Origin: Gammaproteobacteria bacterium
Lineage (GTDB): Bacteria > Pseudomonadota > Gammaproteobacteria > Steroidobacterales > Woeseiaceae
DNA length: 46,265 nt
Direction: 5' to 3'
NCBI GenBank assembly: GCA_018699395.1
Contig: JABIQN010000001.1
Span: forward strand, 67,678 to 113,942
The notes below the pieces were generated by a model. The model was not told the DNA's origin and made no database searches. It saw only the letters and a list, made by a program, of their open reading frames with translations. Shown in pieces: positions 7,615 through 46,265 of this stretch. A program made the translations under genes and the position numbers. Numbering within the stretch: position 1 is the stretch's first letter; every line of letters begins with the position of its first letter.

Positions 7615-7827
7615 ATGTGCGGCGAACATCTTACACCGGAAAGTCTAGGTCGTTATGAGTTTAAGGGGAATACTGGATACTATTTCCTTGCAAGGTTTGT
7701 ACATGACCATTACTTACATGATCAACATATGAGTATTCCCCTGGAAGAGGCTATATCTGCACAACTACCGGATGAAATCACCGAAGAGTCGCTCTTAAGT
7801 CTCATTTCAGTAACGAACAGTCACTGA
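7615..7827 (+). CDS. Small hypothetical protein, doubtful
   Basis: A 70-codon open frame on the plus strand that fills the gap between the racemase gene (diverging, 18 bases away) and modC (converging, 3' ends overlapping by 21 bases). The product has an aromatic and histidine-rich middle (FLARFVHDHYLHDQH) and an acidic, helix-like C-terminus. No family is recognised and no convincing Shine-Dalgarno sequence precedes the ATG. It contains both arms of a perfect 11-base inverted repeat, which may be the real signal in this gap. Confidence 0.3.
   Translation: MCGEHLTPESLGRYEFKGNTGYYFLARFVHDHYLHDQHMSIPLEEAISAQLPDEITEESLLSLISVTNSH
7664..7742. repeat. Perfect 11-bp inverted repeat, 57-base spacer
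   Basis: AGGGGAATACT at 7664-7674 and its exact reverse complement AGTATTCCCCT at 7732-7742 enclose an AT-rich 57-base spacer. The pair sits downstream of the modC stop and upstream of the racemase start on the minus strand. It could form a long hairpin in the RNA between the two operons, or be a protein-binding pair. No T-tract follows, so a simple intrinsic terminator is unlikely. Confidence 0.5.
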
Positions 7828-8826
7828 TTTTATTTGCGCAAAGACATTGTCGCCAACCTGTAGTTTTAGTTCATGCAATGATCGTCGGGTAATGCGCGCA
7901 ACAAGGAAGCTGGCTCCTAACCTCACCCGCACTAGTTGAGTAGACGCAGTCTCCGCAACCGTTTCTTCAATGACGGCGGGAAGTATATTGAGAATCGTGC
8001 TCGACTCCGCTGAAGTGCGGCTCAAACTGATATCTCCTGCGCTAATCCTCAACCGAGCAATCGTCGTATCCTGACGCCCCGGCACCCACAACTCGCCACC
8101 CGGAAACTCGAACAGCGAAAGGTCGAACTCTGCGTCGTAGCGTGACTGTTTGGCCTCAAGAACTGCTCCGGCATTCTCGCCACTGAGTTGTGGCAGGTCG
8201 ATTCTCGCCAGGGTCTCTTGCAGGCAACCTTCCGCGACGACCTTGCCATTGTCGAGCAGAACAAGGTGGTCACTCAATCGACAAATTTCGTCGATATTAT
8301 GACTCACATAAACAATTGGCACTGACGTTTCGGCGTGCAATCGATCAAGATATGGAAGCATATTGCTACGTCGTCGTGTATCGAGTGCAGACAGTGGCTC
8401 ATCCATGAGTATCAACTGCGGTTCCTGACACAGTACCCGAGCAATACAAACGCGCTGTGCTTCACCGCCCGACAAATCACTTACTGAGCGATCGAGCAGC
8501 CTATCAACTTCGAGTATGCTCGCAAATTCAGCGATAGACCGGCGAGCATCTGGATTTCTGCGCCGCCCATACTCCAGATTCTTCTGTACCGTCAGGTGCG
8601 GGAATAGCTGCGACTCTTGAAAAACATAGCCAATACGGCGTTGATGCACTGGACGCAAGTCGCCATTAGTCGGCACCTCAAGTCCAGCGATACAACGCAA
8701 CAAGGTGGTTTTCCCGGATCCGGATTCACCGAACACGCCGGTGATACCTACAGCAGGAATCCGGGTATCCACCTCCAGTTTGAAGTCACCTTTTTGCAGC
8801 GAGTAATGCAGCTCGATGTGATTCAT
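7807..8826 (-). CDS. modC: Molybdate ABC transporter ATP-binding protein
   Basis: A 339-residue ATPase of the molybdate importer. Walker A GESGSGKT lies at about 33-40, the signature LSGGEAQR near 120 and Walker B with LILMDEPLSALD follows. The C-terminal 80 residues form the TOBE/Mop-type domain that binds oxyanions in ModC proteins. The ATG at 8826 overlaps the modB stop (ATGA), the standard arrangement, so I prefer it to an ATG four codons upstream. It is the last gene of the glcB-modABC run. Confidence 0.92.
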   Translation of the reverse strand: MNHIELHYSLQKGDFKLEVDTRIPAVGITGVFGESGSGKTTLLRCIAGLEVPTNGDLRPVHQRRIGYVFQESQLFPHLTVQKNLEYGRRRNPDARRSIAEFASILEVDRLLDRSVSDLSGGEAQRVCIARVLCQEPQLILMDEPLSALDTRRRSNMLPYLDRLHAETSVPIVYVSHNIDEICRLSDHLVLLDNGKVVAEGCLQETLARIDLPQLSGENAGAVLEAKQSRYDAEFDLSLFEFPGGELWVPGRQDTTIARLRISAGDISLSRTSAESSTILNILPAVIEETVAETASTQLVRVRLGASFLVARITRRSLHELKLQVGDNVFAQIKSVTVRY

Positions 8827-9485
8827 CGTGACTGCCACCGACGATTAATCAGAAACATACCTAACAGAATAACGAATGCGAAAAGGATCAGCACCAGAGA
8901 TAGTCGATGTGCTGCGGCGAAGTTGAGTGTCTCGACGTGCTCATAAATCGCGATCGAAACGACTCGTGACTCGCCTGGAATATTGCCGCCAATCATCAGA
9001 ACCACACCAAATTCACCCAGCGTGTGTGCGAATGCGAGAACGATGGCACTAATGAAGCCACGTAACGACAACGGTACGATGACAGAGAAAAATGCATCTA
9101 GCTTTGATGCGCCAAGAGTCCACGCGGCCTCAAGCTGACTGCGGGATAATGACTCGAACGCATTCTGCATCGGCTGTACCGCGAAAGGCAGACTGTATAC
9201 GCAAGATGCAATCACGAGCCCGACAAATGAGAACGTTAGAGTATCCCCGGTGAGTCGCACCCACCAACTGCCAATAGCTCCCTCTGGGCCAAGCACTATC
9301 AACAGATAGAAACCCAATACCGTTGGCGGCAATACGATAGGCATCGCGACGATCGCCTGAACGATGGGCTGCCAACGAGATCGACTTTGTGATAACCACC
9401 ACGCCAATGGTGCACCCAGAAAAATTAGCAGCATGGTCGTTACAAACGCCAACTGCAGGGATAACCAAAGGGGGGCAATGTCCAT
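8823..9485 (-). CDS. modB: Molybdate ABC transporter permease
   Basis: A 220-residue inner-membrane permease with five or six hydrophobic segments, the usual ModB size. The cytoplasmic EAA loop that docks with ModC is visible as LEAAWTLGASKLDAFFSVIVP, followed by HTLGEFGVVLMIGGNIPGES, a strongly ModB-specific sequence. Its ATG overlaps the modA stop (TAATG) and its stop overlaps the modC start, so modABC is tightly coupled. Confidence 0.93.
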   Translation of the reverse strand: MDIAPLWLSLQLAFVTTMLLIFLGAPLAWWLSQSRSRWQPIVQAIVAMPIVLPPTVLGFYLLIVLGPEGAIGSWWVRLTGDTLTFSFVGLVIASCVYSLPFAVQPMQNAFESLSRSQLEAAWTLGASKLDAFFSVIVPLSLRGFISAIVLAFAHTLGEFGVVLMIGGNIPGESRVVSIAIYEHVETLNFAAAHRLSLVLILFAFVILLGMFLINRRWQSR

Positions 9486-10243
9486 TATTCGGTAACCGTG
9501 TAGCCGCTGCTTTCGATTATTTTAATCGCTTTTGGTTCACGCAAAAAACGCATGAAGCGCCATGCTGACTCGAGATTCTTTGAGTGAGTCAATAGAACAC
9601 CTTGTTGTTCAATATCACTGTGCATGCTCGACGGTACATTCCACGTGCACGTCGCATCAACCGGCAAGCCAGCGACTACCTGAGCGCGAGCAACCAATGC
9701 GAATGTCACATTGCCGGTAACTGCGAATAGCAGTGTCTGCGAGATATTTTCACCAAATACCATTCGGCTCGAAGCGTCACGCCAATTCCCGATCGCCTGC
9801 AGATACTCCTTCGCGGCCAGACCATATGGCGCGATTTCAGGATTTGCTATTGCAAGTCTTCTATACAAGCCACCCTTGATAGCAGCAACGCATCCGCCGT
9901 CTTCAAAAGAGCTGTCCGATGACCACAACACCAATGCTCCGGTCGCGTAAGTCATTCTGGAGCCAGCGACAGTGAATTCATTTTCTTCCAGCCTCTTTGG
10001 TCGTTCGACATCTGCAGCGAGAAAAATATCGTAGGGTGCACCGTTGATGATCTGAGTATACAAATTACCGGTCGAGGCAACGCTGATCCTTATTGGAGTC
10101 TGCGTAACTGAAGTGAACTCGGCTGCAAGTTTCGCGGCAGTCCGTTGAAAATTACTAGCAACAGCGATCGTCAGGCCTTCGTTGGCCCAGGATCCGATCG
10201 GTATCAGAATGATGAGCAGGAGAAACGTTCGCGAAAAAATCAC
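9485..10243 (-). CDS. modA: Molybdate-binding periplasmic protein
   Basis: A 252-residue secreted binding protein. Residues 1-20 are a Sec signal peptide ending SWA-N. The mature protein starts LTIAVASNFQRTAAKLA, the ModA N-terminal strand and helix that supply oxyanion ligands, and continues with VASTGNLYTQI and YDIFLAADVERP, both conserved in ModA. It delivers molybdate (and probably tungstate) to ModBC. The start is a GTG nine bases after the malate synthase stop, with no good Shine-Dalgarno sequence, suggesting coupled translation from glcB. Confidence 0.92.
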   Translation of the reverse strand: MIFSRTFLLLIILIPIGSWANEGLTIAVASNFQRTAAKLAAEFTSVTQTPIRISVASTGNLYTQIINGAPYDIFLAADVERPKRLEENEFTVAGSRMTYATGALVLWSSDSSFEDGGCVAAIKGGLYRRLAIANPEIAPYGLAAKEYLQAIGNWRDASSRMVFGENISQTLLFAVTGNVTFALVARAQVVAGLPVDATCTWNVPSSMHSDIEQQGVLLTHSKNLESAWRFMRFLREPKAIKIIESSGYTVTE

Positions 10244-33169: not shown

Positions 33170-33234
33170 TTCACCACCTCAAGTGTTGGAGTAAATAATC
33201 AGGCTCTGCACGCATAGAGCTGAGTGAATAATCG

Positions 33235-34086: not shown

Positions 34087-35792
34087 AATTTTCCTTCCTG
34101 AAGCATTTCAACGGCCGCTGCCGCCGCGCGCGCCGTTAGCGCCATGTAGGTGAGTGATGGATTCTGGCAGGCGGACGAGGTCATCGCGGAGCCGTCAGTT
34201 ACAAATAAGTTCGGCACATCATGAGCCTGGTTGAACTTGTTCAAAACCGATGTCTTTGGATCATGACCCATGCGTGCCGTTCCCATTTCGTGGATCATCA
34301 ATCCTGGTGCCGCTTTGTCCTGATTCACACTGATGTCGGTTAGCCCCGCCGCATTCATTAACTCCTCCGCGTCGGCCGCGATCGCGTCGAACATCGCAAA
34401 TTCATTTTCACGATGTTCGCAGTCGATCTCCAGAATGGGCATGCCCCAGGAATCCTTGTTCTTCTTACTAAGTCGCACACGATTCCGTTCATCCGGTAAC
34501 ATTTCGCCGAAACCAACCATGTCGAAAATCCATGGGCCGGGCCGCTGAAGTTCGGCCTTAAAATCAATGCCGATGCCTGGAGTGTTATTGCCGCGCGACC
34601 AGCTTGATCGGTAAGCGCCACCCTGATAACCGAAGCCACGCAGGAAACGCTCATCTTTATCCATAACATTGCGAAACCGGGGTAAGTAGAGGCCCCCACC
34701 CCGTCGTCCAGCATCGTACATATCCTGATGGCCTGGGAAGACACCACTTGCTCCCACGCCACCAATATGATCCATCAGATAGCGGCCGAGGGCACCACTG
34801 GAATTGGCGATCCCATTGGGAAAACGCTCTGATGTTGAGTTGAGCATGATCTGCGTAGTACCAAGCGTCGATGCACAGAGGAACACGAGCCGAGCGCCAT
34901 AGCTGCGGTGTTCGTGGTTATTGGCATCAACGACTCGGACGCCGGACGCACGATTGCTGTCGCTATCATAGATAACGCTGTCCACGATAGCGTCAGTAAC
35001 CGTGGTCAGATTACCGGTTCGATTTGCCGCCGGAAGCGTCGCCGATAAACTGGAGAAATAGGCGCCAAATGAGCAGCCACGCTGACATTCATCGCGATTC
35101 ATACAGCGTGAGCGACCCAGCGCTATTTGCTCTTTAGTGGGTTCGGTCAAGTGCGCCACGCGGCCCATGATTAGTTTACGGTCGGAAAACGCAGCCTCAA
35201 TGTTCTTTTTAATATCTTTTTCGACACAGTTCATCGGGAATGGCGGCTGGAACACACCGTCGGGAAGTTGTGACAATCCTTCGTTCGATCCACTGATGCC
35301 TGCAAAATTTTCTGCGTGGTCGTACCAAGGAGCCAGATCCTTGTAACGAATCGGCCAATCGGCACCGTGACCATCGAGTTTATTGGCTTCGAAATCAAGG
35401 TCACTTAGACGATAACTGTGCCGATGCCAGAGCAGAGAGCGACCGCCCAGCTGATGGCCACGGATCCAGGAAAACGGCTTATTATCTGGCGTCGCGTAGG
35501 GGTTCTCACGGTCGTTGACGAAAAAGTGTTTCGTGTAGTCGGAGAATGCGTAGCATTGATTTTGTACGGCATAATCACTCTCGGTCAGCGACTCAGGTAT
35601 CTGGCCCGCATAGGGCATTTCCCAGGCTGCTTTTCCTTCCGTTACATAGTCCTGGCGATGCGTGACATTGCGTCCTCGCTCGAGCAACAGCACCTTGAGA
35701 CCACGCTCGGTCAGCTCTTTCGCCGCCCAGCCGCCGGATATACCGGAGCCTACGACAATGGCGTCGAAATCGTTCGAAACTTCAGAGGGCAT
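34083..35792 (-). CDS. GMC-family oxidoreductase, large subunit of a gluconate-2-dehydrogenase-like complex
   Basis: About 569 residues from the ATG at 35792; a frame extending to 35828 exists. FAD binds at FDAIVVGSGISGGWAAKEL, followed by the glutamate of VLLLERG. GGRSLLWHRHSYR and a cysteine-rich stretch (RCMNRDECQRGCSFGAYF) occur mid-protein. The C-terminal domain has HEMGTARMG with the catalytic histidine and NPSLTYMALTARAA with the asparagine. Enzymes of this type oxidise a sugar or cyclitol hydroxyl. It has no signal peptide of its own, whereas its partner subunit carries one. A cytochrome c subunit is not adjacent. Starts 11 bases inside the subunit-3-like gene. Confidence 0.87.
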   Translation of the reverse strand: MPSEVSNDFDAIVVGSGISGGWAAKELTERGLKVLLLERGRNVTHRQDYVTEGKAAWEMPYAGQIPESLTESDYAVQNQCYAFSDYTKHFFVNDRENPYATPDNKPFSWIRGHQLGGRSLLWHRHSYRLSDLDFEANKLDGHGADWPIRYKDLAPWYDHAENFAGISGSNEGLSQLPDGVFQPPFPMNCVEKDIKKNIEAAFSDRKLIMGRVAHLTEPTKEQIALGRSRCMNRDECQRGCSFGAYFSSLSATLPAANRTGNLTTVTDAIVDSVIYDSDSNRASGVRVVDANNHEHRSYGARLVFLCASTLGTTQIMLNSTSERFPNGIANSSGALGRYLMDHIGGVGASGVFPGHQDMYDAGRRGGGLYLPRFRNVMDKDERFLRGFGYQGGAYRSSWSRGNNTPGIGIDFKAELQRPGPWIFDMVGFGEMLPDERNRVRLSKKNKDSWGMPILEIDCEHRENEFAMFDAIAADAEELMNAAGLTDISVNQDKAAPGLMIHEMGTARMGHDPKTSVLNKFNQAHDVPNLFVTDGSAMTSSACQNPSLTYMALTARAAAAAVEMLQEGKL

Positions 35793-36396
35793 AATTGTGT
35801 TGACTCCAAAACCACGCATGGCTGTCATCCGCCATTGGCACGCAGGGGAGATAGTCTCCGGGAATACGCTGAAATCTCAGCTCGACCGTCGCCCCGATTT
35901 CGGACGAGTAGTAGGCGAATAGCACCATTTTCTTTAGTACCCCAAAAAATGGATCTGTGGAATGTTCGGCAAAGAACTCCTTATCAAGCGCGCGTAGCAG
36001 AGCCATCTGCTGCTCGGTCGTGCTGGCCGAAAAACTGCTCGCTCCAGCACCGCGGGCACGCATGTCAATGCCATCAAGGCCCGCGACATACTCCGCCTGC
36101 CGTTGCGGAGACGCCCAATCCGCCAGCATCATATCGATGAAATGAGGTGCGCCAACACCCAGCGCGCCCGCCGTATCGGTCTCGGGAATAATCAGGTCCG
36201 CAATGCGGCTGAGCATTGTAAATTGTTCCGGGCAGAGGAAACGAGGCGGTGCGTCTTCGGCGATAGCGGCAAACGAGTTGCCCAGCAGGCCAAGCTGCGC
36301 TGTGGTTAGCGTGCCGCCAAGCAATGCCACGGCGCCCTTGATAGCGGTCCGCCTTGTAAGGTGTGTTCGATTATCTGCCAATTTCATAATCCTCAA
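35782..36396 (-). CDS. Gluconate 2-dehydrogenase subunit 3-like protein with Tat signal
   Basis: A 204-residue small subunit. The N-terminus has a twin-arginine motif, LTRRTAIKGA (about 13-22), followed by a hydrophobic stretch ending SFAA. Further in, QFTMLSRIADLIIPETDTAGA is the hallmark of the Gluconate_2-dh3 family, and PFFGVLKKMVLFAYYSSEIG and the final HAWFWS-like region match too. It escorts the GMC subunit through the Tat system and may structure the complex. It lies between the GMC gene and the Gfo/Idh gene in a single operon. Confidence 0.85.
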   Translation of the reverse strand: MRIMKLADNRTHLTRRTAIKGAVALLGGTLTTAQLGLLGNSFAAIAEDAPPRFLCPEQFTMLSRIADLIIPETDTAGALGVGAPHFIDMMLADWASPQRQAEYVAGLDGIDMRARGAGASSFSASTTEQQMALLRALDKEFFAEHSTDPFFGVLKKMVLFAYYSSEIGATVELRFQRIPGDYLPCVPMADDSHAWFWSQHNYAL

Positions 36397-36445
36397 TTAT
36401 TCGGGCGTCGAGTCAGGCTGTCAGCGATAGCCGGAAGGGGGCCAA

Positions 36446-37606
36446 CTAAAGATCGACCCATATTCCACCGGCTGTACTTGAGCGGACAGCGGCATCGACA
36501 AATGCAACGCCAGCTTTACCATCGTCACCCGTTGGAAACAAAATATTAGTGTCCGGCGCTTTACCCTCGCTGGCCGCACGGATTGCAGCAGCTACTTGGC
36601 TATAGATGGTTGCAAATCCTTCCAGATACCCCTCAGGATGTCCGTTCGGCATTCTTATAATGCTTGTGGATGAAGCTGGATGACCTGATGGACCACCGCG
36701 CGTAATTCGTTGTGTTGCTTTACCAAACAAACTAAAGCTTATTTCATTGGCTTGTTCTTGCTGCCAAGTAAGGCCGCCTTTGTCGCCATAGACGCCGAGT
36801 CGCACATTATTTTCGTTGCCAACCGCCACCTGACTAGCCCACAACATACCCTTGGCTCCACCCGCGAAACGCAGCAGCAGGTGTGCATTGTCGTCCAGCC
36901 GACGTCCATCAACGAACGTTGTGAGATCCGCACACAAAGCTTCGAGTTTGAGGCCGCTTACAAAACACGCCAGATGGTAAGCATGTGTACCGATGTCAGT
37001 GATAGTACCGCCTACACCTGATTTTGCCGGATCAGTACGCCACGCAGCCTGCTTCTGTCCATCTAATTCGATTGGCTCAGTGAGCCAGTCCTGAGCATAC
37101 TGGACCTGCACGACCCGGATTGTGCCGAGGTCACCACGTTCAATAATTTCCCTAGCTTCTCGCACCATTGCATATCCAGTATAGTTATACGTCACCGCCA
37201 AAATCCGCCCAGCGCTTCGCGCGGCATCTTGAAGAGACTCAGCTTCTTCAATAGTCACGGTCATCGGCTTATCACAAATGACATGTATGCCGGCGGCGAG
37301 AAAGGCTTTTGCGATCGCATGATGCGTATCATTCGGTGTGACAATTGCCACGACATCGATACCGTCTTCGCGGGCGGCTTCGCTACTTACCATCTCTGCA
37401 TAACTGCCATAAGACCTATCCGCGGGAAGGCCAATTTCTTGTGCAGACGACATTGCACGTACCGAGTTCGATGATAATGCGCCGGCGCACAGCTCATATT
37501 CGTCGTCTAATCGTGCCGCTATGCGATGCGCATTACCAATAAGTGCGTCCTGACCACCGCCGACCATTCCCAACCGAATCCTTCTATTTGATAACGTTTT
37601 TGCCAT
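36446..37606 (-). CDS. Gfo/Idh/MocA family oxidoreductase
   Basis: A 386-residue NAD(P)-dependent dehydrogenase. The Rossmann loop is [13 protein letters not shown] near residue 12-24, and the cofactor/catalytic strand carries [10 protein letters not shown], a variant of the usual EKP motif with the conserved lysine. The substrate-side motif is [16 protein letters not shown] near 207-222 with the catalytic histidine. Likely oxidises or reduces a sugar, keto-sugar or inositol derivative. It starts 12 bases after the first TIM-barrel gene's end and is followed by the exported dehydrogenase genes. Confidence 0.88.
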
Positions 37607-37617
37607 AACCTTAATCC

Positions 37618-38673
37618 TTAAGAGAGTCCCAATAGCGATCTATTCGCATCAGCATCAATGTCCGCACCTGCAAAATCATCAAACGCACGCTCTGTGACTC
37701 GAATAATGTGATCGCTGATAAATTTGGCGCCTTCACGGGCCCCATCTTCGGGGTGCTTCAAGCAGCATTCCCATTCGAGAACGGCCCAGCCAGCAAAATC
37801 GTACTGTGCAAACTTCGAGAATATAGCGCTGAAATCGACCTGACCGTCACCTAGCGAGCGGAAACGCCCCGCGCGGTCAATCCACGGTTGATAGCCGCCA
37901 TAAACACCCTGACGGCCAGTCGGATTCAGTTCAGCATCCTTGACATGGAACATCTTGATGCGCTCGTGATAAATGTCGATGTGGTCGATATAGTTAAGTG
38001 CCTGCAGCACGTAGTGGCTGGGGTCATACAGCATATTGCAGCGCGGATGATTATTAACCCGCTCAAGAAACATTTCGAATGTGATGCCGTCATGCAAATC
38101 TTCGCCGGGGTGAATTTCATAGCAAAGATTAACGCCTGCCTCATCGAAGGCATCGAGAATCGGTAACCAGCGATTTGCGAGCTCATCGAACGCGGTTTCA
38201 ACCAGACCTGCCGGCTGCTGTGGCCATGGATACAGATAGGGCCAGGCTAATGCGCCGGAAAACGTGGCGTGCTCCTTAAGTCCGAGATTGGCAGATGCTC
38301 TTGCGGCCAGCAGCAGTTGATCAACCGCCCACCTCTGCCGAGCATCCGGTTTACCACGAACATGGGAGGCGGCAAAGGCATCGAACAATGTATCGTAAGC
38401 GGGATGTACTGCAACGAGTTGGCCCTGCAGGTGCGTTGACAACTCGGTTGGCTCCAGACCATGCTTGTCGAGTGTCGCACGCAGGTCATCACAATAAGCA
38501 CGACTATCAGCAGCCTGTGCTAGGTCAATGAGGCGCTCATCCCAGGTTGGGATCTGCAAGCCCTTGAAACCGAGGTCAGCGGCCCATTTCGCTATGCTGT
38601 CCAGCGTGTTAAACGGAACCTCGTCCGATGCAAACTGAGCGAGAAATATCGCGGGGCCTTTTATTGTTCTCAC
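37618..38673 (-). CDS. Sugar phosphate isomerase/epimerase (TIM barrel, IolE/xylose-isomerase-like)
   Basis: A 351-residue cytoplasmic barrel with no signal peptide. Probable metal ligands occur in order: CYEIHPGEDLHDG (Glu, about 180), NMLYDPSHYVLQ (Asp/His, about 213), KMFHVKDAEL (His, Asp) and AVLEWECCLK (Glu). This set is typical of AP_endonuc_2 proteins that isomerise or dehydrate keto-sugars and cyclitols. It is the first gene of the six-gene minus-strand operon, so the promoter should lie in the 300 bases upstream. Confidence 0.87.
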   Translation of the reverse strand: MRTIKGPAIFLAQFASDEVPFNTLDSIAKWAADLGFKGLQIPTWDERLIDLAQAADSRAYCDDLRATLDKHGLEPTELSTHLQGQLVAVHPAYDTLFDAFAASHVRGKPDARQRWAVDQLLLAARASANLGLKEHATFSGALAWPYLYPWPQQPAGLVETAFDELANRWLPILDAFDEAGVNLCYEIHPGEDLHDGITFEMFLERVNNHPRCNMLYDPSHYVLQALNYIDHIDIYHERIKMFHVKDAELNPTGRQGVYGGYQPWIDRAGRFRSLGDGQVDFSAIFSKFAQYDFAGWAVLEWECCLKHPEDGAREGAKFISDHIIRVTERAFDDFAGADIDADANRSLLGLS

Positions 38674-38750: not shown

Positions 38751-38823
38751 TTGGCAAGTTAGATCAATTTAATATTATATATCACTACAAAATAAGGAGG
38801 CCATCAGCATCAATATACGTATG
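38751..38823 (+). promoter_or_regulatory. Strong promoter-like and Shine-Dalgarno signals without a gene
   Basis: In the 300-base gap between the sugar operon and fpr, TTGGCA (38751-38756) and TATTAT (38773-38778) each match 5 of 6 consensus positions with a 16-base spacer. A perfect AAGGAGG follows at 38794-38800. The next in-frame ATG (38821) is 20 bases away and encodes only 14 residues before TAG; eight bases after the Shine-Dalgarno sequence the codon is ATC. It may express a leader peptide or be the remnant of a lost gene. Confidence 0.4.
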
Positions 38824-38920
38824 ATAACCACCTTATCTAAAGGTGCCACCGGCAATAACATTTAGTTGAGCGCGGCTTTCTAGTGGTCCGCAGGCGACTG
38901 TCGGCATCAGATCATTTTTT

Positions 38921-38938
38921 CATATGTATACCTATGAT
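38921..38938 (+). promoter_or_regulatory. Putative operator overlapping the fpr promoter (site 1)
   Basis: CATATGTATACCTATG (38921-38936) is a near-perfect palindrome centred on GTATAC. It overlaps a -10-like TATGAT at 38933-38938. The same sequence with two pyrimidine/keto changes occurs before the reductase gene at 42836. It is preceded by a run of six T. A MarR protein is encoded between the two sites and is the natural candidate to bind; that assignment is inferred. Confidence 0.6.
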
Positions 38939-38973
38939 ATTCTCGCCCCGATGTTTAGGGACGAGGAGCCTAT

Positions 38974-39822
38974 GTGAGTATTGGGATGAGTCAAGAAAAA
39001 ACCGTAGGATCGGCAACATTACTGGAGTTACAGTCTATGGCCGAGGCCAGAAAGCTGTTCCTGCAGCGGGTCACCTGGGTACACCACTGGACAAATGGCC
39101 TGTTTAGTTTTCGGATTGAGCGCCCAGACAGTTTTCGCTTTCGTTCTGGTGAATTTGTGATGATCGGGCTAAAAGATGGCGAACGTCCATTATTAAGGGC
39201 TTACTCCATCGTGAGCCCTAACTGGGAGGAGCACCTTGAATTTTTCTCAGTTAAGGTGCCAGAAGGACCTCTAACTTCGCGCTTACAGCATCTGAAGGTT
39301 GGCGACTACCTGTTCCTAAGTAAGAAGCCAACCGGCACACTGGTTACGGACGCACTCAAGCCCGGGAAACGTCTTTTCATGATTGGAACCGGTACCGGGT
39401 TGGCTCCGCTTCTTTCCGTTTTGCGCGATACGGAAACGCACGAGAAGTTCGACGAGATTATTATCACGCATACTGTGAGAGAAGAGCAGGAACTTGCCTA
39501 TCGCAACTTCCTAGAAGAAGAAATCCATGCCGATGAGATCTTTGGAGAACTGTTACGAGATCGATTTACTTACTACCCAACGGTTACGCGTGGCGAGTTC
39601 AGAACGCGGGGCAGAATTACCGAGCGCATACAGCTTGGTGATTTCGCAAAAGATTTGGGGTTGATTGGAAATCGATTTAATCCGCAAACTGCCAGGGTAA
39701 TGGTTTGTGGCTCTATGGCGTTCAATAAAGATATGGCTTCCATGCTTGAAGAGCATGGACTTAAAGAAGGCAGTAATTCTTCCCCGGGAAGTTTTGTAAT
39801 TGAGCGAGCTTTCGTCGGCTGA
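38974..39822 (+). CDS. fpr: Ferredoxin--NADP reductase
   Basis: A 282-residue FAD enzyme passing electrons between NADPH and ferredoxin. The FAD motif is RAYSIVSPNW (RxYS, near 74), the FAD/NADP hinge includes LFLSKKPTGTLV, and the NADP site has FMIGTGTGLAPLLSVLRD near 134-151. VMVCGSMAFNKDM near 245 and the FVIERAF C-terminus are typical of bacterial FPR. A GTG start at 38974 is preceded by GAGGAG; an ATG four codons later is possible. The N-terminus is about 25 residues longer than usual. It lies downstream of operator site 1 and 88 bases before fdxA. Confidence 0.9.
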   Translation: MSIGMSQEKTVGSATLLELQSMAEARKLFLQRVTWVHHWTNGLFSFRIERPDSFRFRSGEFVMIGLKDGERPLLRAYSIVSPNWEEHLEFFSVKVPEGPLTSRLQHLKVGDYLFLSKKPTGTLVTDALKPGKRLFMIGTGTGLAPLLSVLRDTETHEKFDEIIITHTVREEQELAYRNFLEEEIHADEIFGELLRDRFTYYPTVTRGEFRTRGRITERIQLGDFAKDLGLIGNRFNPQTARVMVCGSMAFNKDMASMLEEHGLKEGSNSSPGSFVIERAFVG

Positions 39823-39910
39823 CGTTAGAGAGTTTCGTGGTTGCCTGATCGGTGTCGTAATGTCGTATAGACTACGGTTGTGAATCGGTCATTTTTTTGA
39901 GGAGATTTTC

Positions 39911-40252
39911 GTGACTTTCATCGTTACCGATGCATGTGTGAAGTGCAAGTTAATGGATTGTGTGGAGGTATGTCCAGTTGATTGCTTCTATGAGGGTGAG
40001 AACTGTTTGGTTATTCACCCCGAAGAGTGTATCGACTGCGGGATCTGCGAGCCCGAATGTCCAATCGAGGCGATCAAACCAGACGATGAGGATACGCCAG
40101 AACAATTCTGGTTGGGCGTAAATACCAAGTATTCTGAGATCTGGCCAAACATCACACGAAAAGGAATTTCACCAGCCGATGCCGACGAGTATCGAGATGA
40201 AAAAGACAAGTTTGAGCGCTACTTTAGTGAAAAGCCCGGCAATACAGACTAG
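39911..40252 (+). CDS. fdxA: FdxA-type seven-iron ferredoxin
   Basis: A 113-residue ferredoxin with one [3Fe-4S] and one [4Fe-4S] cluster. Cysteines at 9, 17 and 50 should hold the 3Fe cluster and 21, 40, 43 and 46 the 4Fe cluster, matching Azotobacter ferredoxin I shifted by one residue; Cys25 corresponds to its extra cysteine. The C-terminal extension beginning [19 protein letters not shown] is diagnostic. Start GTG, with GAGGAG seven bases upstream. Placed after fpr and near a ferredoxin-dependent reductase, it is the likely electron donor. Confidence 0.93.
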
Positions 40253-40328
40253 CGCAGTATCTCAAAAATGATTTTCTCACTACGTTCGTGCTCGAGTAGG
40301 ACGGTATTACTTCAATAGCCATTCGCCC

Positions 40329-40334
40329 TATAAT
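40329..40334 (+). promoter_or_regulatory. -10 hexamer TATAAT before the MarR gene
   Basis: A consensus TATAAT lies only 10 bases upstream of the ATG at 40345, with a poor -35 (TTACTT, 16-base spacer). Transcription from it would start about 40341, making the 40345 ATG nearly leaderless and favouring the ATG at 40393. Confidence 0.4.
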
Positions 40335-40344
40335 AGAAGCAGGT

Positions 40345-40878
40345 ATGCTAGGCCTACAGCATGCGAGGCATCTATTTGAATGGCGCAAGACAATGACCAA
40401 ATCTGCGGCAAGTAGAAAAGAAGATGGCGGCGATGAATCATCGCTGGCTGTGACGGTAGATGATCAGCTGTACGTGATCGAACAACAAGCCGGGTTTCTT
40501 CTGCGGCGCGCCCACCAACGGTCAGGTGGAATTTTTCAAGCTCTTCTTATGGATAGCGGGCTGACTCCAATGCAATTTACGTCGTTGGTAAAAATTCATG
40601 ATGAAGGTCGTGTATCGCAAAATCTACTTGGTCGGCACACGCATACAGACCCTGCAACAATCATGGGCGTTGTGAATCGTCTGGTTCAGCGTCAATTGAT
40701 ACGAAAAACAACGGATCCGGCCGATAAACGAAAGTCCACACTAATCTTGACTACCAAAGGACTCAAATTAATCGAGTCGCTAAAGACTGCGGCTCTCCAG
40801 GTATCCAGCGAAACGCTTGCGCCATTGTCCATGGATGAGCAAGAGATTTTTTTACGTTTGCTGGCGCGATTAACCTAG
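40345..40878 (+). CDS. MarR family transcriptional regulator
   Basis: A 177-residue repressor; the ATG at 40393 (MTKSAASRKED) would give 161 residues and is likely. The winged-helix core is clear: LLRRAHQRSGGIFQALL helix, LTPMQFTSLVKIHDEG, SQNLLGRHTHTDPATIMGVVNRLVQRQLI (recognition helix) and the wing TTDPADKRKSTLILTTKG with conserved DxR. It resembles NicR/BadR-type regulators of aromatic-acid catabolism as I remember them, which would suit the neighbouring 6-hydroxynicotinate-reductase-like gene. It sits between fpr-fdxA and the transporter/reductase genes and is the best candidate to bind the two shared operator sites. Confidence 0.87.
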   Translation: MLGLQHARHLFEWRKTMTKSAASRKEDGGDESSLAVTVDDQLYVIEQQAGFLLRRAHQRSGGIFQALLMDSGLTPMQFTSLVKIHDEGRVSQNLLGRHTHTDPATIMGVVNRLVQRQLIRKTTDPADKRKSTLILTTKGLKLIESLKTAALQVSSETLAPLSMDEQEIFLRLLARLT

Positions 40879-40994
40879 GCGTTAACGGAATCTGAGAAAA
40901 CGATCGGCGGGCGAATACCCAGAATGCTGTCGCTGGAACACTAGCTCTTACGAGCACGCCGAGTAATTTCGCCAACTCAACTAAGAAAAAGTTC

Positions 40995-42413
40995 TCATGC
41001 AGTTTTTCGCTCATCGGGCAGGTAGTAATTACTGAGCATGAGGATTATTAAGGTACCAAGCGCAACCGCTATGAATATCAGGAGGTCCATACGCAGCCCC
41101 CAAACAACATCACCCGTCAAGCCGAAAATAGATGCGAGGAATATCATCAAACCCAGACCGGTCAGCAACGGAATAAGGCGATGCAGTTGCTTCGGAAAAA
41201 ACACAGCCGACAGTATCATAGGTGCTAACAATGCTGATCCAGCAAAACTGGTTCGTGCCAATAGAACGATATTTGTATTACTCACTAGTGACACCACCAG
41301 TGCTGACAGGGCGAATACGACGATTGCGCTGCGCACCAACGCCAGCGATCGATATTGTGGCTTGGATATACCTGAACGCAACTCGCTACCCAGCGCGAAA
41401 AGTTGCGAATCTGCTGTTGAGATTGCGGCTGCAATTAGTCCAACTACAACCACCGCAGCAATAATCGGTGATTGATCGTATACCAAGACCTGCGCTATAA
41501 ATTCACCGGTGGCACTCGTGGGATAGAGTGCGGCGCCATAAAGGCCAATGGGTAGTGTTGCGAGTACGAGAACGAAAGAGAATAGAGCGAGCAGTACCGC
41601 CATTCGAGCGAGCGACGAGCTGTCCCGCATAATAATCAAACGGGTACCCATTTGTGGCTGTGTCACCGGGATCATTGCGATGGCCAAAAATGACGCTATG
41701 AGAAATTGATAGGTGAACAATCCAGATGGTCCGGGAATTGACAAGAGTGCTGGCGACGTCGATTCGATCGAATCAAACATGGGTCCAATACCACCGAAAT
41801 AGGACACGCAACTGCTTGCAATAATAATAGTGGCGCCAAATAACACGACGCCTTGAATTGAGTCTGCGAAAATTATGGCCTTAAGCCCACCCAGTTCACT
41901 GTAGGCGAGGATTACGCCGACTATCGCGATCGACCACGCCCAGCTTGGCATAACACCCGGAATTATCGAATTCAAGAATAGTGAAACTCCCTTTATCTGA
42001 ATCGCGACATAGGGGATCAGGAAGACAAAGATGCCAAACAAGTAGACGTACGTCGCATGGCGACCACGGTATTTTTGCCCGAGCCAGCCGGAAAATCCAT
42101 TAAAATCATCTGCCGAAATTCGGCGGCGGATATTGACGCCGAACCACAAAGCAACAAATGCCAACGCGCAGTCAGAAACCCCAAGAAAGATCCAGGCACC
42201 AATCCCATGATTGCGAAACAGGTCCGGCATGCCCATTAATGTAAATGTGCTAAATAGTGTGGCGGCGACCGTTAAGCAACCAATAAGCGCCCCGAGATTC
42301 GATCCTGCCATGAGAAAATCGTTGTCTGAATGGTTCGATTTGCGAGCGCGCAAGGCGGCGACAATCAACGTGCAGAGATATACACTGCCAATCCCCAATA
42401 TCCATCCATTCAT
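40995..42413 (-). CDS. Sodium:solute symporter family protein
   Basis: A 472-residue SSS-family importer with about thirteen hydrophobic segments. NSDNDFLMAGSNLGALIGCLTVAATLFSTFT-like start (helix 1, seen as FLMAGSNLGALIG), SELGGLKAIIFADSIQGVVL near 170 and the AAAISTADSQLFALGSEL signature near 330 (sodium-site serines) are diagnostic. It should import a small anionic or zwitterionic nutrient. Its ATG overlaps the stop of the small membrane partner, and the gene diverges from the reductase operon, so it probably brings in that pathway's substrate. Confidence 0.87.
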   Translation of the reverse strand: MNGWILGIGSVYLCTLIVAALRARKSNHSDNDFLMAGSNLGALIGCLTVAATLFSTFTLMGMPDLFRNHGIGAWIFLGVSDCALAFVALWFGVNIRRRISADDFNGFSGWLGQKYRGRHATYVYLFGIFVFLIPYVAIQIKGVSLFLNSIIPGVMPSWAWSIAIVGVILAYSELGGLKAIIFADSIQGVVLFGATIIIASSCVSYFGGIGPMFDSIESTSPALLSIPGPSGLFTYQFLIASFLAIAMIPVTQPQMGTRLIIMRDSSSLARMAVLLALFSFVLVLATLPIGLYGAALYPTSATGEFIAQVLVYDQSPIIAAVVVVGLIAAAISTADSQLFALGSELRSGISKPQYRSLALVRSAIVVFALSALVVSLVSNTNIVLLARTSFAGSALLAPMILSAVFFPKQLHRLIPLLTGLGLMIFLASIFGLTGDVVWGLRMDLLIFIAVALGTLIILMLSNYYLPDERKTA

Positions 42414-42652
42414 TTATTGTCGCCGCGGCCAAGAGGTTTTGGATACAAAAAGGAGCCAGCAATTGTTACCGCGATGAACGCGAGTGCAATAATGAGACCG
42501 ACCGTTAACGAGTATGGAAGGTACAAAATACGAGATGCATGGCCGCCAATAACAAATGGCGTAAAAGTTATGATAGAAAGTGCTATCGCGACACCGCAGC
42601 AAATACGCCACCAGAATGATCGATGGTGGTGAATGTTAAATTTGGAGTTCAT
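42410..42652 (-). CDS. Small two-helix membrane protein, probable symporter partner (DUF3311-like)
   Basis: About 80 residues from the ATG at 42652 (earlier in-frame starts exist up to 42742, but add hydrophilic unconserved sequence). Two hydrophobic segments are visible, WRICCGVAIALSIITFTPFVIGG and SLTVGLIIALAFIAVTIAGS (approximate), with a short hydrophilic tail ending RGDNK. Such small proteins are commonly encoded directly before SSS symporters and are thought to assist them. Stop and symporter start overlap as ATGA. Confidence 0.7.
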   Translation of the reverse strand: MNSKFNIHHHRSFWWRICCGVAIALSIITFTPFVIGGHASRILYLPYSLTVGLIIALAFIAVTIAGSFLYPKPLGRGDNK

Positions 42653-42835
42653 GCTCGTGAATGTCCCGATTCTGAATGAGTCTTGCGCCCGACCGTCATT
42701 GATGCCCCGACGTATTTCCATTGCATACCCACAATAGTTCAATTAAATAGTACTTTCCAGAGCATCTGAGAGAATGGCTGGTACAGGCCTTCAGCTCTTG
42801 CTGAACCCTCATGTATTGGTATGTTTATTTTTTCT

Positions 42836-42852
42836 ATATGTATACTTATTAT
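42836..42852 (+). promoter_or_regulatory. Putative operator overlapping the reductase-operon promoter (site 2)
   Basis: ATATGTATACTTATTAT here matches ATATGTATACCTATGAT at 38922-38938 in 15 of 17 positions. It overlaps a -10-like TATTAT at 42847-42852 at the same offset as site 1, and again follows a T-run. It lies in the divergent gap between the symporter pair and the reductase gene, so it could control both directions. Confidence 0.6.
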
Positions 42853-42874
42853 TATATAAGCCTATGAGTCCGTA

Positions 42875-44407
42875 ATGGCGACTGAAACAAATAAGCCCAG
42901 CACCGACAAGAAGTCGAGCAAATCAACTGGTTTTTCCGGAATGACCGAACGCTTTGGCGCTCGCGAAAAGGACGGCATAGTACGCTGTGATGCTTGCCCA
43001 GTACTTTGCCGAATCAGACCAGAGCGGTCTGGCGCTTGCGGGCGTTATGCGAATGTCGAAGGCGAACTCGCGCGTGTTGACCCACTGGTACTTCTCGAAA
43101 AATCGCGGGCTCCCGGCGGCGGGGTCGTCCCGTTTGAAGGCGCTGCGGCCGAATGGAATGGCACCTTGGTTCAACAAGAAACGTTCGTTACCGCTATCGG
43201 TGCAGGTACAACTTATCCGGATTACAAGCCGGCACCATTTATTGTAGCAACACAATATAACGACCTTGAGACTGTCACGGTGGTCAGTGAGAGTATCTTT
43301 TCGTATTGCGGTGTGAAGATCAAATTGGATACGGATAAGCACCTCGGCGCTGAACAAGCCGATATCCTTTGCGATGGGCAGCGTATTGGGCACGTGACGA
43401 CCGGCGAGTATGGATCGCAGATGCTGTCCATTGGAGGGGTCAATCACCTCACGGGCGGTAGCAAGCGAGAGGGTAAGGTTACTTGTAATACCATTATGGC
43501 GCTGTGTAACCGTCAGCCAGTCGAACTTGTCGTTGCCGGAGGCTGTTCGGTGCTAGTACAGGCAGGACACGCGCCCGTCATCGATGGCGTTACCGAACAG
43601 CGTATGCGTGTTGGTTGTGGCTCGGCAACAATTGGCATCTTCGCGAAGCAGTGGCATGGCCATGTCGACGAAGTCATTGTCATTGACGAACATATTACTG
43701 GGGTTCTGTCAGAGCATCAGGCCGGACGTTGCCTTGGAATGGAGCCCTCTGGGATTCGCGTATGTGGACGGCGCTCAACGCCCGGCCGATACTTCAGTGT
43801 TGCCAATTCCGGGCAGGGCTGGGGTGGTACAGATATCAGCGACCCGTTTTCTATTATTGAGTCAATCGATAATGATGTTGCACGCCCAGGAAGCCGACTA
43901 TTGATGACCACCACAACGGGTGATGAAAGTATCTACTGCGTCCTTGATGACAGCTTGCAGCCAGTGGAAACAGCGATGCCGAATGCGGTACAGATTGTCG
44001 TGGATCGTATTCGGGAAAACTGCGAGCCCTCACTATGCTCAGTGTTATTTGTTGCTGGTGCGGGCGGATCGTTGCGGGCTGGCGTCACCGAGAATCCAGT
44101 GAGCCTGACCCGATCTGTCAAAGAGACGTTGACGCGGGTGACGATGGGCGGTGCGCCGGTCTATGTGTGGCCTGGTGGTGGTATCACGGTCATGGTCGAT
44201 GTCACGCGTATGCCGGCAAGCTCTTTCGGTTATGTGCCGACACCCGCAATAGTAGCGCCAATAGAATTTACATTACCGAGAGACCAATACGCTGCAATGG
44301 GTGGTCATGTCGACTATATTCAGCCACTGGAAGAAATTTGCGATTACTACGGCGACAGTGCGCAGAGCAGTAGCTGGGACCCCAAGAACCCATGGCCGCT
44401 AAAATGA
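42875..44407 (+). CDS. 6-hydroxynicotinate reductase family iron-sulfur protein
   Basis: A 510-residue protein resembling the ferredoxin-dependent 6-hydroxynicotinate reductase known from anaerobic nicotinate fermentation (Eubacterium barkeri), which reduces 6-hydroxynicotinate to 6-oxo-1,4,5,6-tetrahydronicotinate. Cysteines 38, 41, 45 and 55 (RCDACPVLCRI...GACGRY) form a candidate iron-sulfur site. Other conserved-looking blocks are GAGTTYPDYKPAPFIVATQ, GGVNHLTGGSKREGKVTCNT, VAGGCSVLVQAGHAPVIDG and GGAPVYVWPGGGITVMVDV. A weak ribosome site precedes the ATG; operator site 2 lies 23 bases upstream. It begins the operon continuing with UPF0280 and two DUF1185 genes. The name comes from memory of the family; the actual substrate may differ. 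Confidence 0.75.
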   Translation: MATETNKPSTDKKSSKSTGFSGMTERFGAREKDGIVRCDACPVLCRIRPERSGACGRYANVEGELARVDPLVLLEKSRAPGGGVVPFEGAAAEWNGTLVQQETFVTAIGAGTTYPDYKPAPFIVATQYNDLETVTVVSESIFSYCGVKIKLDTDKHLGAEQADILCDGQRIGHVTTGEYGSQMLSIGGVNHLTGGSKREGKVTCNTIMALCNRQPVELVVAGGCSVLVQAGHAPVIDGVTEQRMRVGCGSATIGIFAKQWHGHVDEVIVIDEHITGVLSEHQAGRCLGMEPSGIRVCGRRSTPGRYFSVANSGQGWGGTDISDPFSIIESIDNDVARPGSRLLMTTTTGDESIYCVLDDSLQPVETAMPNAVQIVVDRIRENCEPSLCSVLFVAGAGGSLRAGVTENPVSLTRSVKETLTRVTMGGAPVYVWPGGGITVMVDVTRMPASSFGYVPTPAIVAPIEFTLPRDQYAAMGGHVDYIQPLEEICDYYGDSAQSSSWDPKNPWPLK

Positions 44408-44414
44408 TTTACTC

Positions 44415-45329
44415 ATGAATTCGAGTGCACTTTACGATCCGTCCGATGCTGCGGTTCAATCACGGCTGCCCGCACAAGTGCAGCAGGCAATGCTATCCGG
44501 CCATCGCCTGCATTTGCAACACGGGCCAATCAACCTCGTTATCAAGGCGATTGGCAGCACTGCGGGCGTGCAGCGGGCGTATGCGCTTGCGGCACAACGT
44601 ATGGAAGGAATGCTGCAGGGACTGGCGGACAACCTTTCAGTGTTGCGATCACCCTTGTGCACTACAGACAATGCAAAGACAAACGACGCTACGTCACAGC
44701 GCATGATTTCAACCGTCAGACAATTCAGAGGCTGTTTCATCACGCCCATGGCGGCTGTCGCTGGCGCGGTTGCGGATGAGGTTCTGGCTGCGATGAAAAA
44801 TGCCGATGGCTTGGATAGCGTTTTTGTTAATAACGGCGGCGATATTGCTCTGCACCTCGAACCTGGCCAGAAAATGCGTGTTGGTATTGTACCTTTCCTC
44901 TCGACGGCAACACCGGATGCATCAGTGGAGATCACTGGCGAGGATGGTGTATGTGGAATCGCGACCAGCGGCTGGGACGGCCATTCAATGTCGCTGGGTA
45001 TTGCCGATGCTGTGACTGTTCTCGCAAAAAATGCGGCGATTGCTGATACGGTAGCGACGTTAATCGCAAATAAAGTCGATTGTGATGCTGAATGCATCGA
45101 TCGGAGTCGAGCGCTGGACATTGATCCCGACAGTGATCTCGGAGAAAGACTGGTCACCGTGAATGTAGGCACGTTGCATACACAAGCAATTGATGATGCT
45201 CTTGATCGCGGTGCGAAATTTGCTCGAACCTTGATAAAAAAGTGTGAGCTTTACGGTGTCTTTATTTACCTGCAAGGACATAGTCGTTCCCTAGGCTGGT
45301 CATATGAACATAAAGGAGTAGATACGTAG
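44415..45329 (+). CDS. UPF0280 family protein (ApbE-like fold)
   Basis: A 304-residue protein of the UPF0280 family, related to ApbE flavin transferases. FRGCFITPMAAVAGAVADEVLAAM (about residues 97-120) and FVNNGGDIALHLEPGQKMRVGIVP match the ApbE-type N-GGD-I core, and GVCGIATSGWDGHSMSLGIADAVTVLA is the second conserved block. Function is unproven; relatives may transfer or bind a flavin or act on cyclic amino-acid derivatives. It begins seven bases after the reductase stop and its TAG overlaps the GTG of the next gene. Confidence 0.8.
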   Translation: MNSSALYDPSDAAVQSRLPAQVQQAMLSGHRLHLQHGPINLVIKAIGSTAGVQRAYALAAQRMEGMLQGLADNLSVLRSPLCTTDNAKTNDATSQRMISTVRQFRGCFITPMAAVAGAVADEVLAAMKNADGLDSVFVNNGGDIALHLEPGQKMRVGIVPFLSTATPDASVEITGEDGVCGIATSGWDGHSMSLGIADAVTVLAKNAAIADTVATLIANKVDCDAECIDRSRALDIDPDSDLGERLVTVNVGTLHTQAIDDALDRGAKFARTLIKKCELYGVFIYLQGHSRSLGWSYEHKGVDT

Positions 45330-45910
45330 TGAGTTTTACTGTGCGAAAAATCGTTATTACATTAGATCGCTCAAGTCACGATTTCGGTCCGCCTAAAAGT
45401 GTACCGTTAATTCTAGGTGGTATCTGTGGAGTAGTAAGTAACCCGTTCGCAGGACGATATGTCGAAGTCTTAGAGCCTGCTATGAAGGATCTAGAGCCAT
45501 TGGGTCTTCAGCTTGCGAGCGAATTATTGGAAGCGATGGGTTGTGAGCCTGGCGACATCGAGGCGTATGGCAAAGGCAGCATTATTGGCGCCAATGGCGA
45601 ACTCGAGCATGGCGCGCTCTGGCATACGCCAGGTGGTTACGGTATGCGTCAGATACTTGGTGACACACGGGCTATTGTTCCGTCCACAAAGAAGGTTGGG
45701 GCGGTCGGCACGACAATCGACATTCCGCTGGCGCATACCAACGCTGCATATGTGCGAAGTCATTTTCATACATTACCGCTGCAAGTACCCGATGCACCCA
45801 GACCAGACGAACTGGTGCTTTGTTTAGCTATGGCGACCGGCTCTCGTATTCATGCACGAATGGGTGGGTTACATGCAAACGATATTCTTGGTGAGGATGG
45901 TTTACGATGA
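45329..45910 (+). CDS. DUF1185 'amino acid synthesis' family protein, copy 1
   Basis: A 193-residue protein of Pfam DUF1185 (PF06684), whose known structures have a chorismate-mutase-like fold and no assigned reaction. Hallmarks: VVSNPFAGRYVEVLEP near 35-50, DIEAYGKGSIIGANGELEHGALWHTPGG near 77-104, and RIHARMGG near 175. The start is a GTG overlapping the upstream TAG, with a good Shine-Dalgarno sequence (AAAGGAG at 45312-45318). It is followed by a second copy, overlapping ATGA. In this operon it may act on the partially reduced ring or its hydrolysis product. Confidence 0.85.
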   Translation: MSFTVRKIVITLDRSSHDFGPPKSVPLILGGICGVVSNPFAGRYVEVLEPAMKDLEPLGLQLASELLEAMGCEPGDIEAYGKGSIIGANGELEHGALWHTPGGYGMRQILGDTRAIVPSTKKVGAVGTTIDIPLAHTNAAYVRSHFHTLPLQVPDAPRPDELVLCLAMATGSRIHARMGGLHANDILGEDGLR

Positions 45911-46265
45911 ATGCGAATATCCGAAAGATGCTGGTTGTTGTTGAGGAAACCTGTCGGGAAATGGATCGCGCGGTCAGTCCGGTGACCCGAAAGGCTGTGG
46001 CATTCGCGGTAGTCGATAATCCCTGTGCAGGGAAATTTGTCGAAGACCTCGAGATTTTGATGCGAATCGGTGCAGAATTGGGTGATCTCCTCGGTCGCCG
46101 AGCCGTTGCTGCACTGGGAGTGCCGTCGTCGGAAATTGAGAGCTATGGCAAGGCCGCTATCGTTGGTGCCGGTGGGGAGCTGGAGCATGCCGCAGCGATC
46201 CTGCATCCGCGCCTTGGCAAACCACTGCGTTCTGCCGTACAACAAGGCGCTGCACTGATTCCGTC
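45907..46265 (+). CDS. DUF1185 'amino acid synthesis' family protein, copy 2 (cut by window edge)
   Basis: About 119 residues visible from the ATG at 45907; the C-terminus is outside the window. It aligns with copy 1 over its whole visible length: VVDNPCAGKFVEDLE corresponds to VVSNPFAGRYVEVLE, and EIESYGKAAIVGAGGELEHAAA to DIEAYGKGSIIGANGELEHGAL. The start overlaps copy 1's TGA (ATGA). The two may form a heteromer or act successively; divergence is substantial, so it is not a recent duplication. Confidence 0.85.
   Translation, partial: MNANIRKMLVVVEETCREMDRAVSPVTRKAVAFAVVDNPCAGKFVEDLEILMRIGAELGDLLGRRAVAALGVPSSEIESYGKAAIVGAGGELEHAAAILHPRLGKPLRSAVQQGAALIP

Follow-up and report, generated by a model that had tools for sequence, protein, structure and literature searches.

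A probable reductive nicotinate-catabolism operon broken by a contig end in a Woeseiaceae-like gammaproteobacterium

The last part of a 46,265-nucleotide stretch of DNA (the window) from a gammaproteobacterium of the Woeseiaceae (assembly GCA_018699395.1, contig JABIQN010000001.1) carries, at positions 38751-46265, a group of genes around a homologue of 6-hydroxynicotinate reductase, Hnr. All the genes named there by a first-pass annotation were found, with support from Pfam and NCBIfam profile searches (Table 1). The annotation described them as contiguous. The gene order is as listed; the sodium/solute symporter (SSS) pair, however, is on the strand opposite to its neighbours, and this divergent orientation implies a transcript separate from the operon. 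The plus-strand block consisting of Hnr, UPF0280 and two DUF1185 paralogs, D1 and D2, is almost gapless from 42875 to the window end. The window ends exactly where contig C90 stops, and D2 is therefore truncated. The locus is very likely the promoter-proximal half of an operon for nicotinate catabolism by the reductive route through 1,4,5,6-tetrahydro-6-oxonicotinate (THON), with parts that would work as proposed below.

The remainder of the block is present in a close relative, L003, whose Hnr is 95% identical to that of the window. After D1, the L003 order is a complete D2, an enamidase (a 397-residue amidohydrolase), a stretch resembling an FAD subunit, and a molybdenum hydroxylase. The enamidase matches that of Eubacterium barkeri (2vun) with E=2.1e-109, residues 12-394 aligning on 2-384. 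The two proteins have in common HVH, HTGG and HINGG, which are presumably metal-ligand-type motifs. The best PDB match of the hydroxylase is 1sij (1.1e-105); E. barkeri nicotinate dehydrogenase, 3hrd_A, is matched at 3.2e-85. Both genes were also matched by tblastn in L004, where Hnr is 92% identical. The annotation had read the locus as a ferredoxin-driven reductive system for the catabolism of an N-heterocycle and had pointed to the genes past 46265 as a check; the enamidase and molybdenum hydroxylase that lie there in L003 and L004 support this reading. The substrate, left general in the annotation, appears to be nicotinate.

In the window's own genome the molybdenum hydroxylase is on another contig, C72, and is 95% identical to the L003 copy. 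When both contigs are aligned to L003, the window stops at 13391 and C72 starts at 14831. In L003 this interval of about 1.44 kb is occupied by the remainder of D2 and by almost the whole enamidase gene (13646-14839). By synteny with L003, the enamidase of the window's genome would sit in this assembly gap of about 1.4 kb. Downstream of the hydroxylase, and on the same strand, C72 encodes a BMP-type ABC importer, a nucleoside hydrolase, and GATase1-like, alpha/beta hydrolase, FmdA-like and nicotinamidase-like proteins. The genome of L003 (G004) retains this series from the importer to GATase1, along with part of the alpha/beta hydrolase, so that the nucleoside part of the proposal is supported by two close genomes. 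In L004, GATase1 is found shortly past the hydroxylase, and the importer is unmatched in the stretch. The nicotinamidase-like protein of C72 matches 1ilw with E=7e-54 and scores 159.7 bits against NF008623, under the cut-off of 174. The nicotinamidase-like protein at L126:9187-9846 (minus strand) shares a near-identical twin-arginine-like leader with an unrelated isomerase-like protein at 33235-34086 (minus strand) of the window. Export of this nicotinamidase-like protein is possible, as is a wrongly called start.

Table 1. Features of the window and the basis of their assignment
Feature	Position	Strand	Basis or remark
Fpr-like ferredoxin-NADP reductase	38974..39822 (searched from 38989)	+	NAD_binding_1 and FAD_binding_6 above Pfam cut-offs
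FdxA seven-iron ferredoxin	39911..40252	+	NF045490, 154.9 bits (cut-off 135)
MarR regulator	40345..40878	+	PF01047 above cut-off
SSS-family sodium/solute symporter	40995..42413	-	PF00474 above cut-off
Small partner of the symporter, 110 aa	42410..42742	-	Overlaps symporter start
Hnr, 6-hydroxynicotinate reductase homologue, 510 aa	42875..44407	+	30-row alignment
UPF0280, ApbE-fold protein	44415..45329	+	NF003322, 316.9 bits (cut-off 290)
DUF1185 paralog D1	45329..45910	+	PF06684, 209.7 bits (cut-off 27); 3byq E=1.6e-51
DUF1185 paralog D2, partial	45907..46265	+	PF06684 (AA_synth), 142.4 bits (cut-off 27)
ModABC-like molybdate importer	7807..10243	-	Reading of open-reading-frame translations alone

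The surroundings of the reductase were compared in 78 loci, comprised of the window, 40 contigs of named genomes, 6 of 26 plasmid records and 31 loci from further genomes. The named-genome loci were seeded with the window protein and are thereby skewed towards its relatives, and many rows are closely related to each other. Left out of the 78 were L001, L002 and L051-L083 (short stretches, the places mostly refetched in full), as well as L029 (the other end of the L028 contig), L043, L116 (partial reductase) and L115 (no reductase). Neighbouring genes were mapped by tblastn in the fetched regions, 19 of which reach less than 7 kb on one side. The reductase tree contains 77 loci, L114 being omitted on account of its split reductase. 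In L114 (G075:C1:2969814-2971255) the reductase is found in two adjacent open frames, from a frameshift or an assembly error. UPF0280 was found in 78 of 78 loci, and the window paralogs fall into two distinct DUF1185 clades, D1 and D2, with members in 58 and 45 loci, respectively. Because of these counts, the gene arrangement exceeds what chance would give. Hnr itself was found in 4 of 60 genomes near the window (37 of the same genus, including its own, and 23 of the same order); all four belong to the genus, and one copy is partial. A phylum-wide draw yielded Hnr in 32 of 398 genomes and in 31 of the 337 of high quality. This patchy distribution suggests transfer among lineages.

Two types of candidate ring opener accompany the reductase. 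A linked enamidase is present in 32 of the 78 loci, and HyuA or HyuB, of the ATP-dependent oxoprolinase/hydantoinase family, in 22. No locus has both, and 24, the window among them, have neither. At E<=1e-40, an enamidase was found in 17 of 31 reductase-bearing genomes (11 linked, 4 just past the stretch and 2 on another contig); none was found in the other 14, which include all 8 with linked HyuAB. On the reductase tree, obtained by a quick search that left 15 of 74 inner branches open, the enamidase and HyuAB states have to change six times or more. The sequences suggest that one opener of THON has been swapped for another across the Hnr loci. The HyuAB-type loci (L049, L098, L104-L106, L113 and others) would then probably represent an ATP-dependent variant of the pathway, and a different substrate is possible for them. 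Six-membered lactams can be opened by ATP-dependent oxoprolinases, as a passage of PMC11033972 indicates. A NicAB-type hydroxylase accompanies HyuAB at L049 and L098; an enamidase was found neither in the genome of L098 (G445) nor on the plasmid of L049, which is not among the 25 plasmid records matched, the other L049 replicons being outside the search. The HyuAB and nicotinamidase families are both widespread, and their linkage was counted without a chance control. Among the open-licence papers listed by the literature searches, none deals with a replacement by HyuAB or with a role for UPF0280.

The profile search assigned the reductase (42875-44407) to no Pfam or NCBIfam family. Its tie to EC 1.3.7.1 rests on the annotation of related records, on the enamidase partner and on the printed identity of another homologue. 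Among 26 related plasmid genes, 17 are annotated as 6-hydroxynicotinate reductase and 3 as hypothetical protein, and 6 are without annotation. The other homologue, also proteobacterial, is given as 42% identical to the E. barkeri enzyme in a passage of PMC3511419. Seven cysteines that could hold iron-sulfur clusters (38, 41, 45, 55, 145, 248 and 383) are kept in 77 of 77 rows. The E. barkeri reductase reportedly has a covalently bound flavin, according to a 2006 abstract. Thr252 of Hnr, in an ApbE-like GSAT motif, was considered as the covalent-flavin site and is disfavoured, as alanine occupies the position in 3 of 30 rows.

UPF0280 follows the Hnr match on the same strand, at most 400 nucleotides downstream, in 76 of the 78 loci. 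Two aligners give its model (mean predicted local distance difference test score, pLDDT, 89) an ApbE-like fold. Comparison with the flavin transferases ApbE, Ftp and FmnB results in VIA Z of 14.3-17.4, with a root-mean-square deviation of 3.0-3.5 over 202-217 aligned residues; structure 2o34 scores Z 20.2, and the next fold, far lower, 7.7. A length filter passed 66 of the 78 loci, and 65 of these 66 rows retain the residues in NxGGD, TSG and ADxxAT. Because of the ApbE-like fold, the constant association with Hnr and the flavin reported for the E. barkeri enzyme, UPF0280 is probably a flavin transferase that loads Hnr. It is doubtful that UPF0280 is instead a separate enzyme of the pathway. 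In favour of a separate enzyme is the score against the Pfam ApbE family PF02424, which at 21.3 bits is under the cut-off of 25.6 and speaks against flavin loading; 3 of 7 members match this family at E<=0.01. Inspection by eye also revealed no motif of the HxxDP type, typical of ApbE, in the window protein. The wide separation of the flavin transferases from the next fold, the conserved residues, the presence of UPF0280 at all 78 Hnr loci and the covalent flavin of the E. barkeri enzyme all favour the flavin transferase. The term UPF0280 was absent from the open-licence literature searched.

EC 1.3.7.1 is a ferredoxin-dependent enzyme, and the annotation had asked whether fpr and fdxA co-occur with the reductase elsewhere. 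For Fpr they do: the fetched region includes it at 33 of the 78 loci, namely 23 of the 32 with enamidase, 7 of the 22 with HyuAB and 3 of the 24 with neither. The Fpr-like protein, closest in NCBIfam to PRK10926 (123.9 bits, cut-off 390), is the sole match in the window's own genome, which is 89% complete. FdxA, however, is near the reductase in just 4 of the 78 loci (the window, L003, L004 and the distant L091), a point against a complete chain as a general property, and FdxA is therefore a local feature outside the general system. L116, a partial locus from the window's genus, has FdxA as well. A second FdxA, 60% identical, is encoded elsewhere in the window's own genome, so that the operon-linked gene is an extra copy. 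Electrons would flow from NADPH through Fpr and FdxA to Hnr, with FdxA serving as the carrier in this clade. An unlikely alternative is that the upstream position of Fpr and FdxA is fortuitous, the two being housekeeping or stress genes, and that Hnr uses another electron donor. The scarcity of FdxA, the 45 of 78 fetched regions in which Fpr is unmatched, and the L004 region, where FdxA is present and Fpr unmatched, are in line with this alternative. It is countered by the presence of Fpr near 23 of the 32 enamidase-type loci, in several lineages, by the operon FdxA being a second, additional copy in the genome, by the recurrence of FdxA and Fpr together beside the enamidase in L091, and by the ferredoxin dependence of EC 1.3.7.1.

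All 32 loci with a linked enamidase have D2, as do 3 of 22 with HyuAB (L047, L049 and L098) and 10 of 24 with neither. The three HyuAB loci rule out a strict tie between D2 and the enamidase. Fisher values of 5.8e-6 and 8.3e-10 (59 loci) overstate the association, because the test by independent pairs on the tree is weak: of 8 pairs, about 3 are concordant and none discordant, with a median p of 0.25. Nine plasmid records that carry more distant homologues of the enamidase were inspected, none of which is among the 26 Hnr records. A DUF1185 gene immediately precedes the homologue in five of the nine (Thermomicrobium, A. vitis, Mesorhizobium, Mariluticola and Shinella) and does not directly precede it in the other four (two Rhodococcus, Prescottella and Haloarcula). 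At L129, L130, L132, L133 and L136, DUF1185 is followed by an enamidase homologue on a plasmid that has no Hnr match; a succinate-semialdehyde dehydrogenase is nearby in L132 and L133. A passage of PMC7913881 calls the DUF1185-family protein HcdD homologous to TgnF, a stimulator of semialdehyde oxidation, and states that HcdD, unlike TgnF, showed no such stimulation. In the part of a DUF1185 structure paper that bears on function, a role in amino-acid metabolism is suggested from adjoining branched-chain amino-acid transport genes (PMC2954203). Matches to liv-type transporters occur in the regions of 54 of the 78 Hnr loci. It is proposed that DUF1185 acts after opening of the lactam, on an aminomethylene or formyl dicarboxylate.

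The best PDB relative of the MarR protein is 2nnn, and BpsR (6pcp/6pco) is second. Repression by BpsR is lifted by 6-hydroxynicotinate (6HNA), as stated in a passage of PMC6837509. Tyr43 and Arg54 of the window protein align with the BpsR 6HNA ligands Tyr15 and Arg26, and they are kept in all 57 MarR proteins that passed length and score filters from 61 loci with a MarR match. The symporter, nearest in NCBIfam to PanF (80.4 bits, cut-off 328), is near the reductase in 4 of the 78 loci. Its 110-residue partner has no Pfam or NCBIfam match; homologues were found in L003, L004 and L116 (41%). Nicotinamidase-family genes are present in 14 of the 78 fetched regions (3 of the enamidase type, 5 of the HyuAB type and 6 of neither). 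Nine of the 14 were checked by profile; all scored best with NF008623, eight of them above its cut-off. NicB, of the NicAB cytochrome-type nicotinate dehydrogenase, is matched in 17 of the 78 loci, at merely 26% identity in one of them, L037, and has no match in the stretches of the window, L003 and L004. The ModABC-like importer, which is unlinked to the operon, could be the source of molybdate for the molybdenum hydroxylase. The block adjoining the operon (32246-38673) consists of sugar genes: a ribokinase, above its NCBIfam cut-off, is followed by GMC oxidoreductase-, Gfo/Idh- and isomerase-like genes, as read from their translations.

In the proposed pathway, nicotinate would be imported through the SSS pair or, alternatively, the nicotinamidase-like protein encoded farther downstream would form it from nicotinamide. 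Part of the nicotinamide would perhaps come from pyridine nucleosides, taken up by the BMP-type ABC importer and cleaved by the nucleoside hydrolase. Nicotinate would then be converted by the molybdenum hydroxylase to 6-hydroxynicotinate, which may double as the signal for MarR. Hnr, with its iron-sulfur clusters and the flavin attached by UPF0280, would reduce 6-hydroxynicotinate to THON with electrons supplied from NADPH by way of Fpr and FdxA. The enamidase would open the THON lactam, leading to 2-formylglutarate, and the DUF1185 proteins would assist in converting the aminomethylene or formyl dicarboxylate to a semialdehyde.

Several observations weigh against this pathway, in addition to the FdxA count and the Pfam score of UPF0280 given above. 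The enamidase search of the window's own genome returned just a weak amidohydrolase match (E=3.7e-4). Foldseek matched nothing to the Hnr model at E<=0.001, and the top VIA Z was 4.2 over 92 residues; the model is weak (mean pLDDT 67), and its fold result therefore tells little. The position of BpsR His32 is histidine in 44 of the 57 MarR proteins and serine in that of the window, and the position of His23 is histidine in 6 of 57 and phenylalanine in the window. The 14 nicotinamidase loci, counted without a chance control, represent about four lineages, and nine of them come from one family. The synteny between C72 and G004 stops ahead of the FmdA-like and nicotinamidase-like genes, neither of which has a match in the G004 stretch L115, so that within the window clade the nicotinamidase link is a matter of one genome only.

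It is quite improbable that the module targets another pyridine, such as an N-methylpyridinium carboxylate of marine plankton (trigonelline or homarine), with nicotinate as a side substrate or intermediate: a Rieske oxygenase of the vanillate-demethylase type (VanA_C), which could be an N-demethylase, is found in 18 of the 78 regions (L024-L041, L044, L047 and others; 17 in the Roseobacter group), and homarine catabolism by marine bacteria has been reported (cited in a passage of PMC13390433), yet the fetched stretches of the window clade have no Rieske match, the enamidase is close to the E. barkeri THON enzyme, and nicotinamidase genes lie near the reductase. Homarine as the substrate is disfavoured, since the enamidase and nicotinamidase indicate nicotinate.

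The reductive nicotinate route may be put in a more general, and tentative, form. Hnr would be a portable dearomatising module with UPF0280 as its obligatory flavin loader, an interchangeable enamidase or HyuAB opener, and DUF1185 for finishing; the operon of the window clade would import and dismantle NAD-derived pyridine nucleosides, and its extra FdxA would be a dedicated low-potential carrier. Two conserved proteins left without function in the published account gain testable roles, UPF0280 as a flavin transferase and DUF1185 in a step after lactam opening. The comparison predicts a second, ATP-dependent opening of the reduced ring. Breakdown of vitamin B3, perhaps of NAD-derived nucleosides, would be placed in marine Woeseiaceae-like bacteria.

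The annotation had pointed to a reductive nicotinate route in aerobes such as Azorhizobium, and this route is already published together with a conserved gene cluster. According to passages of PMC3511419, strain SG-6C grows on nicotinate and has an Hnr homologue in a conserved cluster, which is common to Azorhizobium and other putative nicotinate-degrading proteobacteria. The cluster covers the first three steps and also encodes an importer and two proteins to which no function had been assigned. The THON route is described as known in E. barkeri and Azorhizobium in a passage of PMC9304392. As the route and the proteobacterial cluster are in print (PMC3511419, in the passages cited), the locus adds a member in Woeseiaceae-like bacteria to a known route. 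Loci L084-L089 are similar to the cluster of Bradyrhizobiaceae SG-6C and Azorhizobium caulinodans and consist of Hnr-UPF0280-DUF1185 and an enamidase, with a NicAB-type (cytochrome) hydroxylase, a liv-type ABC importer and a single DUF1185, D2. The window clade, in contrast, has a hydroxylase of the xanthine dehydrogenase type, an SSS importer, two DUF1185 proteins and a linked FdxA. The nicotinate fermentation of E. barkeri shares with the window clade an enamidase homologue (2vun), a related hydroxylase (3hrd) and, by name, Hnr. E. barkeri is, however, an anaerobe, and its later steps follow the methyleneglutarate route. The trigonelline pathway of Acinetobacter baylyi differs in that it has no Hnr, and its ring is opened by a monooxygenase. 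The likeness in this case is confined to TgnF, which a passage of PMC7913881 relates by homology to the DUF1185-family HcdD.

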